A stretch of DNA of 54,207 nucleotides from Lachnospiraceae bacterium (GTDB lineage Bacteria > Bacillota > Clostridia > Lachnospirales > Lachnospiraceae), in assembly GCA_022788085.1 (NCBI GenBank), contig JALEWA010000044.1:1-54207 (forward strand), given 5' to 3'. The notes beneath the pieces are model-generated. The model saw nothing but the letters and a program-made list of their open reading frames with translations, searched no databases and was not told where the DNA came from. This document shows positions 7,925 through 38,347 of this stretch, piece after piece. Made by a program: the position numbers and the translations under genes. The stretch's first letter is position 1. Each line of letters starts with the position of its first letter.

Positions 7925-7970
7925 CTCCCTTTTTGTAACTATTCAGTACCTTCATAGTTACTCCCTTTTT
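7925..7970 (-). repeat. Small palindrome with GAAGGTACTGA loop, flanked by 10-bp direct repeats, before clpX
   Basis: Read on the minus strand, arms GTAACTAT and ATAGTTAC (7935-7942, 7954-7961) enclose the 11-base loop GAAGGTACTGA. The same loop, with a different but still perfectly paired stem, occurs at 24901-24929. The 10-mer AAAAAGGGAG, which resembles a ribosome-binding site, is present on both sides (7925-7934 and 7961-7970), as if the palindrome had been inserted with target duplication. Confidence 0.65.
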
Positions 7971-23855: not shown

Positions 23856-24416
23856 ATGGGAAATAATTTATTGCTAATCATTGATATGCAGAATGTATAT
23901 CTTCCAGGGCAGCCATGGAGTTGTCCGGGAATTCTAAGTGCGTGGGAGAAAATAGAAGCACTGTTGAATTCTAAGAATACGTATTTCGAAAATGTCATTT
24001 TTACAAGATTCCTTCCGACGGACAATCCTAAGGGAACATGGGCAGACTATAACAGGGAATATCGTGATATCAACGAAAATCCCTGGATGAGTGAAATGAT
24101 TCCCGCATGCAAGCCATACTTAGAGCAATATCCTCTTTATACCAAGCATCAGTACTCTTCCTACACCATCCCTGAAATACAGGAGCTTGCAAAAAAGGCT
24201 GACCACGTGGTCCTTGCAGGTGTCGTTGCTGAATGCTGTGTTCTCTTTACCGCTATCGACTGCATGGATGCCGGAAGTAAGGTCATCTACCTGAAGGACG
24301 CCTGTGCCGGTCAGAACCCGGATACGGAAGCTACCGTAGAAAGACTGCTGCACTGTCATGAACCGATGCACATTCAGGTCATGAGCTGTGAAGACTACAC
24401 CCATTTGCACGACTAA
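23856..24416 (+). CDS. Isochorismatase-like cysteine hydrolase
   Basis: A 186-residue enzyme of the isochorismatase/nicotinamidase fold. The catalytic triad is Asp in LIIDMQN (near residue 9), Lys in YTKHQYSSY and Cys in GVVAECCVLFT. The family hydrolyses amides and related bonds, for example nicotinamide or carbamoyl compounds. It follows the ECF ATPase by 19 bases with GAGG before its ATG, so its substrate may derive from what the transporter and nucleoside phosphorylase supply. Pyrimidine-ring degradation or nicotinamide salvage are both possible. Confidence 0.85.
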   Translation: MGNNLLLIIDMQNVYLPGQPWSCPGILSAWEKIEALLNSKNTYFENVIFTRFLPTDNPKGTWADYNREYRDINENPWMSEMIPACKPYLEQYPLYTKHQYSSYTIPEIQELAKKADHVVLAGVVAECCVLFTAIDCMDAGSKVIYLKDACAGQNPDTEATVERLLHCHEPMHIQVMSCEDYTHLHD

Positions 24417-24449
24417 TCACCGAAGAACTTTGTAATTTTGGCCACTTTA

Positions 24450-24669
24450 CATCGAAAATAACCAATTTCTATTTTCTCGATGCTCAAAAATGCCATTTTT
24501 TCACTTTCTATCATCGGAATATATCAAATTACAAAATATCGATGCTACTTTTTTTCAAAAATGAAGAAAATAGCATCGATATTTGCATATAATATACTTT
24601 TCGATGTAGTTTCCTATTTTAAAGAAATATAAACGACATCGATATATAAAATTACGAGGTATTTCGATG
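24450..24669 (+). repeat. Phased CATCGA/TCGATG array, copy A
   Basis: Eight hexamer blocks alternate in orientation: CATCGA 24450, TCGATG 24477, CATCGG 24512, TCGATG 24539, CATCGA 24574, TCGATG 24601, CATCGA 24637, TCGATG 24664. Start-to-start spacing is 27, 35, 27, 35, 27, 36, 27. Each TCGATG-N29-CATCGA pair can form a hairpin; the middle one extends to TCGATGCTA/TAGCATCGA with further pairing inside. A second locus (36370-36588) has the same design in reverse orientation. Confidence 0.85.
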
Positions 24670-24689
24670 CAATGACTACCTTTTTGAGA

Positions 24690-24858
24690 ACTAGTACAAC
24701 GTTTCTTAAATAACTGCACCATAAAACGCAGAATGTTTTTTCAAGTGTGCTGTTTCAAAAACGCAGGCGTAGTGGGCTACGTCGAGGCTTTTGAAATAGT
24801 GCAATTAGAAAAACCGGCAAGTTATATGGTGTAGTTATTTAGAAATCGGTGTACTAGT
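24690..24858. repeat. Long imperfect palindrome (MITE-like)
   Basis: The outer 34 bases (24690-24723) match the reverse complement of 24825-24858 with few mismatches (ACTAGTACA, TAAATAACT and CACCATA are shared). Pairing continues inwards through TTTCAAAA/TTTTGAAA to a tip hairpin CGTAG-TGGG-CTACG at 24768-24781. Total length near 169 bases, no coding potential. It looks like a non-autonomous mobile palindrome, but no second copy was found in this window. Confidence 0.7.
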
Positions 24859-24900
24859 GCCATCACAATCAGGGTACTAACTCAAGTTGCATTTTTGCAT

Positions 24901-24929
24901 CGTATCTATGAAGGTACTGAATAGATACG
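24901..24929 (+). repeat. Hairpin with GAAGGTACTGA loop, second copy
   Basis: Arms CGTATCTAT (24901-24909) and ATAGATACG (24921-24929) enclose the loop GAAGGTACTGA. The copy before clpX has the identical loop but a GTAACTAT/ATAGTTAC stem, i.e. base pairs differ yet pairing is kept. Confidence 0.65.
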
Positions 24930-24940
24930 AAAAGTTTGAA

Positions 24941-25882
24941 CTACAAAATTAATTTCACAAAATATGCCGCATACATAACAACCATCAAAATACCACCAGT
25001 ACGGTTCAGCTTCTTATTCTTAAATACGAAGAGCCAAAGTACTGCCATAACAAGGACTGCCACGATATTATCAAAGAGGAAGGCGTCTACATATGCAACC
25101 GGTGTGATCACCGCAGTTGTACCTAATACGAATAAAATATTGAACAGGTTGGAACCTACGATATTACCGACTGCAATATCGGTTTCCTTCTTGGATGCTG
25201 CCACACATGAAGTAACAAGCTCCGGCAGGGAGGTACCGAATGCTACAATCGTAAGACCGATTAATCTCTCACTCATGCCGAACTTCTGTGCAATGGCAGT
25301 TGCTGCATCAACGGTTACATTGGAACCCCATACGATTAATACACCACCGATAATAATCAATGCCAGAAGCTTTAATACGGTATCATTCTCGCCGGCTTCT
25401 TCTACCTCTTCCACTTCTCCCTGACCTTTCATTGCCATCTTAATCATATAGACAATATAGATGAGAAGCAGAATCCAGAAGATAATACCATCAACTCTAC
25501 CAATATTACCATCCATTGCCCCCAGAATCAGCATCAAAAGAGAAATACCAAAAACAAACGGAATGTCAATCTTAATCGAAGACGGCTTAACTGCAAGCGG
25601 ATAGATAATAGAAGCAAGTCCTAAAATCAAAAGCACATTCATGATATTACTTCCAAGTACATTACTGATTGCAAGGTCAACGCTTCCCTTCAATGCAGCA
25701 CTGATACTGACTGCTGCCTCCGGTGCACTCGTACCAAATGCCACAATCGTAAGACCAATAACAAGGTGTGGAATCCCAAACTTGTCTGCAATCTTAGAGG
25801 CACCATCAACGAACCAGTCAGCCCCCTTCATTAACATGACAAATCCAATCACCAGAAACAAAAACTGTAATACAATATCCAT
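24941..25882 (-). CDS. Calcium/sodium antiporter (CaCA family, YrbG-like)
   Basis: A 313-residue membrane exchanger with the two inverted alpha repeats of the family: GTSAPEAAVS...NVLGSNIMNVLLILG in the first half and GTSLPELVTS...NIVGSNLFNILFVLG in the second. About ten membrane segments and an acidic cytoplasmic loop (EVEEVEEAGEND) between the halves. It exchanges Ca2+ or another cation for Na+ or H+. AAGGAGAG precedes the ATG. A 42-bp element upstream (25908-25949) recurs upstream of the MATE gene. Confidence 0.93.
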   Translation of the reverse strand: MDIVLQFLFLVIGFVMLMKGADWFVDGASKIADKFGIPHLVIGLTIVAFGTSAPEAAVSISAALKGSVDLAISNVLGSNIMNVLLILGLASIIYPLAVKPSSIKIDIPFVFGISLLMLILGAMDGNIGRVDGIIFWILLLIYIVYMIKMAMKGQGEVEEVEEAGENDTVLKLLALIIIGGVLIVWGSNVTVDAATAIAQKFGMSERLIGLTIVAFGTSLPELVTSCVAASKKETDIAVGNIVGSNLFNILFVLGTTAVITPVAYVDAFLFDNIVAVLVMAVLWLFVFKNKKLNRTGGILMVVMYAAYFVKLIL

Positions 25883-25907
25883 AATGGTTCTCTCCTTATT
25901 TTTCTAA

Positions 25908-25949
25908 TGTACTCTCAGAAATCCATATACTAAAGATTCAGAGCTTACA
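25908..25949 (+). repeat. 42-bp shared element, copy 1 (upstream of the Ca2+/Na+ antiporter)
   Basis: The first 21 bases (25908-25928) are identical to the reverse complement of 38265-38285, upstream of the MATE gene. The remaining 21 bases agree at about 14 positions. In the other copy the ends form TGTACTCT/AGAGTACA; here the right arm is degenerate. Confidence 0.7.
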
Positions 25950-25972
25950 TCCTAAAGTAATGAATAAGTTTA

Positions 25973-33788: not shown

Positions 33789-35288
33789 TTATAATTGATA
33801 AATCTCTGTATATTTCTCTGTAAAATAGCGAATCAAAGGCTCTGCGCTTACTTCCTTACCACATACTGCCTTGATGACTTCTTTTGGAGTACGGGTACTT
33901 CCGTATTGGTGAATCTTTTCCCCAAGCCATTTCGTAATCTCTTTGATTCTTCCATCTTTCAGGATATCATCGATACTTCCAAGCTCTTCTTCTATCTTAT
34001 CAAGAAACATGCCATCGTAAATGCTTCCCAATAAATAAGATGGAAAATAACCAAAGGAACCACCTGACCAGTGCGTATCCTGTAAAATACCCTGTGCATC
34101 ATTTTTGGGTGTAATCTGTAAGTATTCCTGCATCTTTGCATTCCAAAGGTCAGGAAGCTCATCGACTGACACATGGTCACGAAAGATTGCCTTTTCTATC
34201 TCATAACGGATAATAATGTGAAGGCAGTAAGTCACCTCGTCAGCATCCACACGGATGAAGCTGTTGCGCACATGATTGATTTCCTGATAAAACTCTTCTA
34301 GTGAAATCGCCTGAAACTGTGGTAAAAGTGCTCCTAACTTCTCATAGATTGGGAGCCAGAAGTTCTTATTCCTTCCAAGAATATTCTCGTAAAAGCGTGA
34401 CTGGCTCTCATGAATTCCCATATAGCAACAGCTTCCTGCCACTGTTCCATCGTAATCAGGATTGACCTGCTGTTCAAAAATAGCATGACCTCCCTCATGA
34501 ATGGCAGAAAACATAGCACTGAGTGCATCCTTTTCATAATAGTGGTTCGTGATTCGTGCATCCCTGGAAGAAAAATTCATGGTAAAGGGATGCTCTGTTT
34601 CTCCTACCGTTCCCTTATCCCAATCAAAACCAATATAATCAAGCAAAAGCTTTTGTACCTTTTTCTGCGCCTCTATATCATAGTTTCCCTTAAATTTAGA
34701 GCTATCCGGCTGCTTTGCGGAAAGAATTCTTTTTACAAGCGGAACAAGCTCCTTTTTCAAGTCATCAAAAAGCTTGTCCATGGTCTCTGAGTCCATCCCC
34801 TCTTCATATTGGTCAAGAAGCACATCATATATCTCCTTACCCGGATCGGTATATTCAGCCATTTTCCTTGTCATTTCTATCATCTTCTCAAGATGTGGGG
34901 CAAAAATACTGTAATCGCTTGCATTCTTAGCTTCCTTCCATGCATTTTCGGACTCTGCCTTTGCCATTACATAGCTCTCATAGAAATCAGCCGGAATACG
35001 CTTACTCTTATCCAAATCCCGCTTCATACGTGTTACGATGAATTTCCACATATCATCCAATGTCTCAAATTCTTGCGGCATTTCCAATTCGTCAAGCATA
35101 GCACTTAGTTCTTCGGAAGTGGACATTTTAAACTGTTCTGTTGAGAAATAAGTCAATGCATCTGCATGTCCCTCAAACCCAAGCTTTGGCGTATTGGTCT
35201 CCATATCCCACATCAGAAGTTCTATTACATGGTTATATTGATTCATCTTCTTCAAATATATCTGTAAATTCTCTAATACATTACTCAT
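33789..35288 (-). CDS. Metallocarboxypeptidase, M32 family
   Basis: A 499-residue zinc carboxypeptidase of the M32 (Taq/Pfu carboxypeptidase) family. The zinc-binding HEXXH motif is AIHEGGHAIFEQ (near residue 265), followed by the family GIHESQSRFYEN motif containing the third ligand region. It trims C-terminal residues from peptides in the cytoplasm. The ATG at 35288 follows AAAGGAGAG; a TTG codon directly before it is ignored. Confidence 0.95.
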   Translation of the reverse strand: MSNVLENLQIYLKKMNQYNHVIELLMWDMETNTPKLGFEGHADALTYFSTEQFKMSTSEELSAMLDELEMPQEFETLDDMWKFIVTRMKRDLDKSKRIPADFYESYVMAKAESENAWKEAKNASDYSIFAPHLEKMIEMTRKMAEYTDPGKEIYDVLLDQYEEGMDSETMDKLFDDLKKELVPLVKRILSAKQPDSSKFKGNYDIEAQKKVQKLLLDYIGFDWDKGTVGETEHPFTMNFSSRDARITNHYYEKDALSAMFSAIHEGGHAIFEQQVNPDYDGTVAGSCCYMGIHESQSRFYENILGRNKNFWLPIYEKLGALLPQFQAISLEEFYQEINHVRNSFIRVDADEVTYCLHIIIRYEIEKAIFRDHVSVDELPDLWNAKMQEYLQITPKNDAQGILQDTHWSGGSFGYFPSYLLGSIYDGMFLDKIEEELGSIDDILKDGRIKEITKWLGEKIHQYGSTRTPKEVIKAVCGKEVSAEPLIRYFTEKYTEIYQL

Positions 35289-35332
35289 CAATACTCTCTC
35301 CTTTAATTGAATCTATTCACACACTATAAAAC

Positions 35333-35450: not shown

Positions 35451-36002
35451 TTAGTAATTCTCATTTCTTACTTCGAAATAGCTCTGTGGATGATTACATA
35501 CAGGGCAGACCTCAGGTGCCTTTGTTCCTACTACAACATGACCACAGTTGCGACACTCCCACATAGTAACACCACTCTTCTCAAATACCTGCATAGCCTC
35601 TACATTATGTAAAAGTGCTCTGTATCTCTCTTCATGAAGCTTCTCGATTGCACCAACACCTCTAAACTGCTTAGCAAGCTCAGGGAAGCCCTCTTCTTCT
35701 GCATCCTTTGCCATACGCTCATACATGTCTGTCCATTCTGCATTCTCTCCTTCTGCAGCATGAAGAAGATTCTCTGCAGTGTCCCCTAACTCACCTAAGG
35801 CCTTGAACCAAAGCTTTGCATGTTCCTTCTCATTCTCTGCTGTCTTAAGGAATAATGCTGCAATCTGCTCATAGCCTGCTTTCTTTGCTACAGAAGCAAA
35901 ATATGTGTATTTATTTCTTGCCTGGGATTCTCCTGCAAATGCCTCCCAAAGATTCTTTTCTGTTTTTGTCCCTGCATATGGGTTCTTATTTGTCTGACTC
36001 AT
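35451..36002 (-). CDS. Rubrerythrin
   Basis: A 183-residue non-haem iron protein that reduces hydrogen peroxide in anaerobes. The N-terminal ferritin-like four-helix domain holds the di-iron ligands ([12 protein letters not shown] and [10 protein letters not shown]), and the C-terminal rubredoxin-like domain has two Cys pairs (CRNCG and CPVC). AAAGGAGG precedes the ATG. It is monocistronic between its own promoter and terminator and signals an anaerobic host with oxidative defence. Confidence 0.97.
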
Positions 36003-36135: not shown

Positions 36136-36157
36136 TGTCAATTCTTTGCAAATTAAA

Positions 36158-36382
36158 TTATATAGTAGCCTTTAACTGCTTGTTTAACTCTTCAATCATA
36201 GTCCTAGGTATGTCAGGCATAGATGTAGCAATCAAGTCAACTGACGCACCATTTTTTAACAAACTAACAATAATATCTATCTTAGCTTCTCTTATCTTTT
36301 CTTTTGCATAATCTTCAACTAATTGACACATTTTACCTACCTCCTTTGCCTCCCCGAAAGGATTGTTGGCATCGAAATTCAT
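36158..36382 (-). pseudogene. Small ORF resembling the C terminus of an Rpn/PDDEXK_2-type nuclease
   Basis: About 74 residues. The segment MCQLVEDYAKEKIREAKID followed by a short helix-turn-helix-like tail resembles the C-terminal end of Rpn (recombination-promoting nuclease/transposase) proteins, but the catalytic PD-(D/E)xK part is absent. No Shine-Dalgarno sequence precedes the ATG, and its fifth codons (Phe-Asp-Ala) overlap the terminal TCGATG block of the repeat array. I therefore treat it as a probable remnant; it could be a short functional protein. Confidence 0.45.
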
Positions 36383-36588
36383 CACGCATATCTATATCGA
36401 TGTTATTTTTATTCTTATTAAAGAGGTATTGCATCGAAAAAACTATTATAAGTGGATATCGGTGTCATTTTCTTCATTTTTTAGAAAAATCAACACCGAA
36501 ATAATGCATTTATATAAATTCCGATGCTGATAATTGAAAAAATGGGGTTTTTGAGCATCGAAAAATTTAATACGGGCTATTTCCGATG
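36370..36588 (-). repeat. Phased CATCGA/TCGATG array, copy B
   Basis: Blocks on the plus strand: CATCGA 36370, TCGATG 36397, CATCGA 36432, TCGGTG 36459, CACCGA 36494, CCGATG 36521, CATCGA 36556, CCGATG 36583. Spacing is 27, 35, 27, 35, 27, 35, 27. Its reverse complement aligns with copy A over the full length. In the central hairpin both arms changed together (TCGATGC/GCATCGA in A, TCGGTGT/ACACCGA in B), so pairing is kept. This array fills most of the gene-free stretch between the small ORF and tRNA-Leu. Confidence 0.85.
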
Positions 36589-36631
36589 TAATACAGACTT
36601 TTCCGCTTCTATTTTAGCAGTATCGAGAACA

Positions 36632-36676: not shown

Positions 36677-36687
36677 TTTTCATTCCT

Positions 36688-36766
36688 GCGGATAACAGGA
36701 GTTGAACCTGCACGGTCGCCCGCCAGAACCTAAATCTGGTGCGTCTGCCAATTCCGCCATATCCGC
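36688..36766 (-). tRNA. tRNA-Leu (anticodon TAG)
   Basis: Acceptor GCGGATA pairs with TATCCGC; anticodon stem CCAGA/TCTGG encloses TTTAGGT, giving anticodon TAG; a long variable arm (CGG-GCGA-CCG) is as expected for a class II tRNA. The 3' CCA is not encoded. Confidence 0.95.
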
Positions 36767-38222: not shown

Positions 38223-38243
38223 GTTTTCCTCCTGTTCTCAATA

Positions 38244-38285
38244 TGTACTCTTGGAATCTTCTGCATATGGATTTCTGAGAGTACA
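38244..38285 (-). repeat. 42-bp shared element, copy 2 (upstream of MATE gene)
   Basis: Inverted ends TGTACTCT and AGAGTACA frame an imperfect palindrome. Positions 38265-38285 are the exact reverse complement of 25908-25928. Confidence 0.7.
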
Positions 38286-38347
38286 TCAATCTAATCCTGT
38301 TCATACACTAATATACACACAATTGCATATCTTATCATACTGTAAGG

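Follow-up and report, generated by a model that had tools for sequence, protein, structure and literature searches.

RAYT, or TnpAREP, is an HUH tyrosine enzyme. In the REPIN-RAYT systems (REP-TnpAREP; also REPtron and BIME), inverted repeats in alternating orientation are dispersed outside genes, and the enzyme gene has the same repeats beside it. One account describes RAYTs as single-copy and vertically inherited (PMC8049555), and another has the enzyme recognising single-stranded REP hairpins that carry a GTAG tag (PMC8266576). Here we analyse a 54,207-nucleotide contig of a Lachnospiraceae bacterium (JALEWA010000044.1 of assembly GCA_022788085.1; hereafter the window), which contains two intergenic arrays of alternating inverted hexamers, A and B. 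Both are probably copies of a dispersed element that serves a cognate PD-(D/E)XK-type nuclease as a platform for binding; the nuclease would belong to a Lachnospiraceae protein family that is unnamed in the libraries used. The whole looks like an undescribed enzyme-plus-repeat system in one family of gut bacteria.

The repeating unit is a pair of inverted short half-sites, here CATCGR, probably set about three helical turns apart, and the linkers would place every repeat on the same face of B-DNA. The arrays and their units are:

24450..24669, no strand: array A, four 33-bp units CATCGR-N21-YCGATG with linkers of 29, 29 and 30 bp
24450..24482, no strand: array A, unit 1
24512..24544, no strand: array A, unit 2, first half-site CATCGG
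24574..24606, no strand: array A, unit 3
24637..24669, no strand: array A, unit 4
36370..36588, no strand: array B, four 33-bp units with linkers of 29, 29 and 29 bp, inverted relative to A
36370..36402, no strand: array B, unit 1
36432..36464, no strand: array B, unit 2, second half-site TCGGTG
36494..36526, no strand: array B, unit 3, half-sites CACCGA and CCGATG
36556..36588, no strand: array B, unit 4, half-sites CATCGA and CCGATG

The initial annotation had described two eight-block arrays with 27/35 spacing, the second in opposite orientation, and the sequence bears this out. Blocks of array A start at 24450, 24477, 24512, 24539, 24574, 24601, 24637 and 24664 (27-35-27-35-27-36-27), and those of array B follow at 27-35-27-35-27-35-27. 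Some blocks carry one mismatch, namely one in A (CATCGG) and four in B (TCGGTG, CACCGA and CCGATG twice). Positions 24447-24606 and 36432-36591 form an inverted pair, with 75% complementarity over 160 nt. The arrays yield chain scores of 23 and 20, and no chain at the reporting score of 8 appeared in 20 dinucleotide-block shuffles of the window.

A and B are not alone in the host genome, where chain detection finds 16 arrays of 6 to 12 blocks; steps within units measure 26-27 bp and those from one unit to the next 34-36 bp. Most are intergenic according to a simple open reading frame (ORF) finder. A three-block pattern gives 37 forward and 37 reverse matches in this genome, versus 0 and 0 for the same pattern read backward, and BLAST with array A returns array B and further copies at up to 90% identity. 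Pairwise identity of the array flanks is high only 2-5 positions outside the last half-site and on one side, the other side being near background, which indicates that the copied element coincides with the array; the dispersed copies end within ~5 bp of the outermost half-site.

Beyond the host, BLAST with array A against 23 genomes of the same genus gave no match in 22 and a weak 41-bp match in one. The pattern CATCGR-N21-YCGATG-N28..30-CATCGR occurs in 8 of 200 genomes of the family (host included), and its backward-read control in none of the 200. A search for more copies had been proposed in the initial annotation, and the same spacing architecture was indeed recovered from 35 genomes: across a collection of 84,980 species, a four-block pattern hits 94 stretches in genomes titled Lachnospiraceae, Blautia, Agathobacter, Acetatifactor, Butyrivibrio, Hominifimenecus and Colinaster, with one 'Eubacteriales bacterium'. 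The pattern was absent from viral contigs. By eye, the filler between half-sites is similar within one genome and unrelated among most genomes. For statistics we assembled 112 arrays (the 16 of the host, those of the family genomes and 80 of the 94 stretches, leaving out the 14 stretches L161-L174). Of 434 steps inside units, 402 measure 27, and the 338 between-unit steps are 35 (189), 36 (130) or 34 (19). Because 97 of the 112 arrays begin with CATCGR and end with YCGATG, the 33-bp unit appears to be the building block.

A co-occurring protein family, the second object of search suggested by the initial annotation, was also found. Fourteen array loci encode a protein of ~275 aa that has a PD-(D/E)XK nuclease domain, and in 13 of them it lies within ~0.5 kb of the array (L103 is counted as not adjacent to a CATCGR array). 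The predicted model has helices at residues 165-176 and 221-236 and strands at 181-183, 199-203, 208-215 and 245-249. The α-β-β-β-α-β core of the PD-(D/E)XK fold, with its conserved acidic residues, is present in the model and the structural rows. E167, D198 and E213 are invariant in 89 aligned sequences that share 23-57% identity with the first; the alignment leaves out incomplete nucleases, those below 235 or above 310 aa and those with internal stops. The motif at the catalytic position is E213-H214-R/L, in which H214 is invariant and the following position variable. Pfam gave no match above cut-off in six members of the family, and NCBIfam none in four.

The nuclease gene lies outside the window. 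The host protein nearest to the nucleases of CATCGR arrays is encoded on another contig (G000:C86:3-653), whose end truncates the gene; a further copy of the array is 35 bp away from it. Several other contigs end just upstream of a nuclease gene (e.g., G151:C46, G167:C57, G120:C3, G048 and G112; not counted), as would be expected if a repeated array at that place breaks short-read assembly. With two further nucleases besides the CATCGR type, the host has three. The TAGTTG-type array of the host has four more BLAST matches, three of them scoring at least 15 as arrays of the TAGTTG motif, and the CACGTA-type array has one more match, a short chain scoring 11.3. Six different nucleases, all near full length, are encoded by G380 (L269, L283 and L284), a genome that is 100% complete in ~20 contigs and lends itself to the study of several systems side by side.

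The family profile matches 72 of the 200 family genomes (host included), some through the nuclease domain only. At E ≤ 1e-10 the profile finds matches in 17 of 398 genomes from across the phylum, and near-full-length matches are confined to the five genomes of the window's own family. The other 12 match mainly over the nuclease domain, eight of them in ORFs of at least 650 aa. Plasmids and viral contigs likewise match over the nuclease domain only, save for one 4.2-kb phage record matched over 86%.

Arrays were then sought beside nucleases with no motif specified, as any alternating inverted hexamer at steps of 12 to 80 bp, with a threshold score of 15. We used 90 nuclease loci, 60 of them taken with 1.5-kb flanks in addition to a first set of 30, places weaker than about 2e-41 being left out. 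A phased inverted array reaches the threshold at 57 of the 90, where the maximum of 270 shuffles is 12.2, which establishes the nuclease-array association at the level of sequence. The threshold is reached by seven of 93 control tiles that lack a called CATCGR array (periods 62-64, 73 or 84). A nuclease is present in one of the seven, and another represents a leftover chain of the CATCGR type. The hexamers differ among nucleases (CATCAA, CATCTT, CAGCGG, CAGCTA, TACGGT, GGGTAC and many more).

Most of these arrays lie upstream of the nuclease gene (47 of 57; six are downstream and four overlap it), and 27 of the upstream arrays are within 100 bp of the called nuclease ORF. Such a placement, together with helical phasing that suits cooperative repressor binding, is what one would expect if the protein were mainly a DNA-binding autoregulator with the upstream array as its operator and nuclease activity incidental, the dispersed arrays recruiting other genes into its regulon or insulating transcription. 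We regard this as unlikely, since the nuclease-site residues are invariant in all 89 sequences, more than a pure regulator should need, and the arrays show no promoter bias: in the 86 of the 112 with both neighbours called by the simple ORF finder, the neighbouring genes are co-directional in 54, convergent in 21 and divergent in 11.

The array periods fall into discrete classes. Median periods are 51-54 at 22 loci, 61-64 at 14, 73-75 at 14, 84-86 at five and 94 at one, with an outlier of 36 (L241, AT-rich and 1.1 kb from the gene) that was dropped from the fit. Class means of 52.86, 62.86, 73.64, 85.0 and 94 give 10.52 bp per step with an intercept of 0.09, and 54 of 56 periods lie within 1.5 bp of a multiple of 10.5. 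The search has no bias toward helical periods. A step of 10.52 bp corresponds to one turn of the B-DNA helix. At least 16 changes of turn class are needed on one FastTree tree carrying 64 labelled tips, against a minimum of 24 and a mean of 32.6 for shuffled labels; the classes therefore do not stem from a single inherited accident and are not random relative to the nuclease. In a suitable register, one spacing is likely to be constant at close to 31 bp and the other to be about 22, 32, 42, 53 or 62, a split that depends on the register chosen.

That ordinary tandem or dispersed repeats simply happen to adjoin a nuclease gene deserves almost no credence. Several arrays do look like tandem duplications, and a 62-bp tandem repeat will hold some inverted hexamers by chance, but coincidence accounts neither for 57 of 90 nuclease loci versus 7 of 93 control tiles nor for filler that varies between units whose hexamers are kept. 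Quantisation of the periods by helical turns, and motif similarity that follows nuclease similarity, also run counter to it. The initial annotation was right to see more here than a decaying repeat.

The initial annotation had also offered a folded RNA or DNA structure as one of its two explanations, in which the inverted hexamers would be hairpins in a transcript or in single-stranded DNA, possibly as a cruciform. Inverted repeats tend to fold better than shuffles, and one strand of each window array does fold as RNA better than 200 of 200 shuffles (z -6.5 and -3.8); another array gives z -2.8 with 100 shuffles. The paired difference reported between the copies (TCGATGC/GCATCGA in A, TCGGTGT/ACACCGA in B) is literally present, but it does not extend to general covariation. 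Across units (GC 116, GT 111, AT 102, AC 100) and across linkers (CG 90, TA 87, TG 84, CA 73) alike, the degenerate final base of CATCGR shows no correlation with the base that it would pair with. A Watson-Crick excess outside the hexamer across the 35-bp linkers, 143 observed versus 75 expected, looked like covariation. For that outer base, however, half-sites agree in 73% of units, 74% of linkers, 74% of non-adjacent opposite pairs and 78% of pairs in the same orientation. Since non-pairing half-sites agree as well as pairing ones, the excess reflects a uniform motif. Neither the 434 units nor the 338 linkers show covariation that is specific to pairing partners. The Rfam 15 scan of the window returned only tRNAs at the gathering threshold, the arrays being unmatched, and arrays occur in both orientations relative to genes. 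RNA pairing would not require a 10.5-bp quantisation kept through at least 16 class changes. For these reasons folded RNA was rejected as the main explanation despite the significant folds, and we consider it, or a cruciform, very improbable. The helical period points instead to an array read as duplex DNA along one face. It was the other proposal of the initial annotation, a multi-site protein-binding array, that gained support, as spacing is kept around unrelated filler, periods are quantised at 10.5 bp and the motif follows the neighbouring nuclease family.

This last relation was measured on 52 loci found only via the nuclease, for which motif similarity and protein identity correlate with r = 0.20 (0 of 5000 permutations); with ten motif-found loci added, r is 0.41 (0 of 2000 permutations). 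Some sister proteins share motifs, as in L192/L194/L215 (TACGGTT-like) and L214/L219/L229 (GTCA). The nucleases also recur at particular chromosomal places. A comEC-like gene lies upstream in eight loci and holA downstream in five, both in four; rplM-rpsI lies upstream in five, an aspartyl/asparaginyl-tRNA synthetase gene near four, and guaA and a pyruvate phosphate dikinase gene upstream in three each. These names come from NCBIfam on one or two members per cluster, and some are partial matches below cut-off. Of 30 holA loci that we retrieved, 17 contain comEC on the strand of holA and no nuclease in the sequence retrieved. The comEC-holA interval could hold neither a nuclease nor an array in 14 of the 17, where it measures -95 to 129 bp; in the remaining three it measures 822-1091 bp.

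Both the domain and the neighbours bear on a role in defence, in which the nuclease would cut invading DNA that carries its motif, in the manner of restriction-modification, and the arrays would be storage, decoy or self-mark sites. The C-terminal domain matches the PADLOC candidate-defence models PDC-S68 (1.1e-29) and HEAT_CxxC_PD-DEXK (2e-4), motifs differ between nucleases, and three nucleases coexist in the host genome. The PADLOC match, however, is confined to the end of ~1200-aa models, and the recurrence of several nucleases beside housekeeping genes such as holA and rplM-rpsI is unlike typical mobile defence genes. No recurrent methyltransferase-like cluster was found within 1.5 kb of the 90 nucleases, the neighbours being annotated in part. 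We judge defence to be distinctly unlikely.

Under the nuclease-platform reading, nuclease molecules would bind the half-sites cooperatively on one face of the DNA; that the nuclease itself reads the half-sites is suggested by the co-variation of motif and nuclease. An array upstream of the nuclease gene would act as its operator, as its position suggests, and the gene would be autoregulated. Cleavage at or near arrays, followed by repair of the break, may then have expanded, copied and scattered the arrays in intergenic DNA. We infer this last step, the least certain one, from the array boundaries, the dispersed copies and the invariant nuclease residues.

Several observations, along with the RNA folds described above, weigh against this reading. 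The canonical PD-(D/E)XK lysine is not evident in the E-H-R/L motif, so nuclease activity is assumed, and Foldseek found no structure match at E ≤ 0.001. Thirty-three of the 90 nuclease loci have no array above threshold; some of them end at a contig edge, and two (L178 and L183) do have an array by motif-specific chain. Conversely, no nuclease was detected in genomes G130 and G208, which carry short CATCGR arrays of two units (L056, L059 and L071); either the arrays are relics or the nuclease was missed in assembly. Genomes with CATCGR arrays have only a modest excess of nucleases of any kind (6 of 8 versus 66 of 192 genomes, p = 0.027). The excess is stronger at a profile E below 1e-99 (5 of 8 versus 4 of 192, p = 2.6e-6), but this cut-off was chosen after the list had been seen, and the proteins behind the profile were themselves array-adjacent, two or more of them coming from test genomes. 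The motif-nuclease correlation of 0.20 is small. Nucleases that adjoin comEC belong to different clades of their tree, so either the place was re-occupied or the tree is wrong at this point, and long vertical descent is not established. Finally, neither a target-site duplication nor an empty site was found for a dispersed array.

Within the window, array A is situated between two convergent genes and array B between a tRNA gene and a rubrerythrin gene:

23856..24416, + strand: isochorismatase/nicotinamidase-like gene flanking array A, with weak NCBIfam matches far below cut-off; outside the system
24941..25882, - strand: calcium/sodium antiporter gene flanking array A
35451..36002, - strand: rubrerythrin gene flanking array B
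36687..36766, - strand: tRNA gene flanking array B

Other repeats are found nearby. A ~170-bp dispersed element with inverted symmetry, distinct from the CATCGR array, lies 3' of array A at 24684-24859; it has copies on host contigs C243 and C82, and many genomes of the genus carry it too. Another dispersed repeat, only ~30-50 bp long and present at 24884-24934 and 7929-7961, likewise has matches in many of these genomes. A 44-nt inverted repeat pair, 25907-25950 and 38243-38286, is 84% complementary over a distance of 12 kb, its members lying immediately upstream of the genes for the antiporter and a MATE transporter. On the minus strand, a 500-aa ORF at 33789-35291 has no NCBIfam match at E ≤ 0.001, and a short ORF at ~36150-36332, between rubrerythrin and array B, presumably resembles the C-terminal end of Rpn-type PD-(D/E)XK proteins.

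These results link an unnamed nuclease family to a class of dispersed repeats that did not turn up in the literature searched. Because array periods are spaced in steps of 10.52 bp, the genomes display the helical repeat of DNA directly. With dozens of enzyme-motif pairs matched by nature, the specificity code of a small nuclease might be learned from sequence, and the system bears on the open question of how bacteria maintain and spread short repeats without classical transposases.

TnsA of Tn7, Bax1, VSR, Hjc and VRR_NUC are the PD-(D/E)XK nucleases among the closest known systems. As regards Tn7-like transposons, no transposase-like cluster recurs in the 1.5 kb on either side of the 90 nucleases. 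The C-terminal nuclease domain is shared with the ends of large ATPase/helicase proteins and with PADLOC PDC-S68, whereas the protein here stands alone at ~275 aa and has a different N-terminal half. Units of ~33 bp with linkers of 29-30 bp recall CRISPR arrays, but in a comparison of the repeats themselves, with no search for cas genes, only the terminal hexamers are kept between units, there are no near-identical direct repeats, linkers are similar within a genome, loci are many and dispersed, and the period varies by whole helical turns.

The nearest parallel is REPIN-RAYT, whose extragenic dispersal is matched by the mostly intergenic arrays of the host. The enzyme here is PD-(D/E)XK-like and the site a helically phased duplex array; the half-sites of the window, CATCGR/YCGATG, carry no GTAG tag and show no partner-specific pairing. 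Y1 transposase (PF01797) has 0 matches in the host genome, where 5 of 14 control genomes are positive, and a Pfam scan of six array-linked proteins found no Y1_Tnp. As to the single copy and vertical inheritance described for RAYTs, the signs are mixed: nucleases recur beside comEC-like, holA, rplM-rpsI and guaA genes, but those near comEC belong to different clades, and genomes can hold several nucleases (three in the host, six in G380). With no Y1 enzyme in the genome and no GTAG tag, our analysis indicates that the array-nuclease system is not a member of the REPIN-RAYT class, even if it appears to work like one. Tentatively, it may be a REPIN-RAYT counterpart of independent origin, a partnership that would have arisen on a double-strand-DNA nuclease, in which chromosomal PD-(D/E)XK nucleases with their own motifs assemble on one face of the DNA, arrays spread by cutting and repair and change spacing by whole turns, and enzyme and repeat co-evolve.
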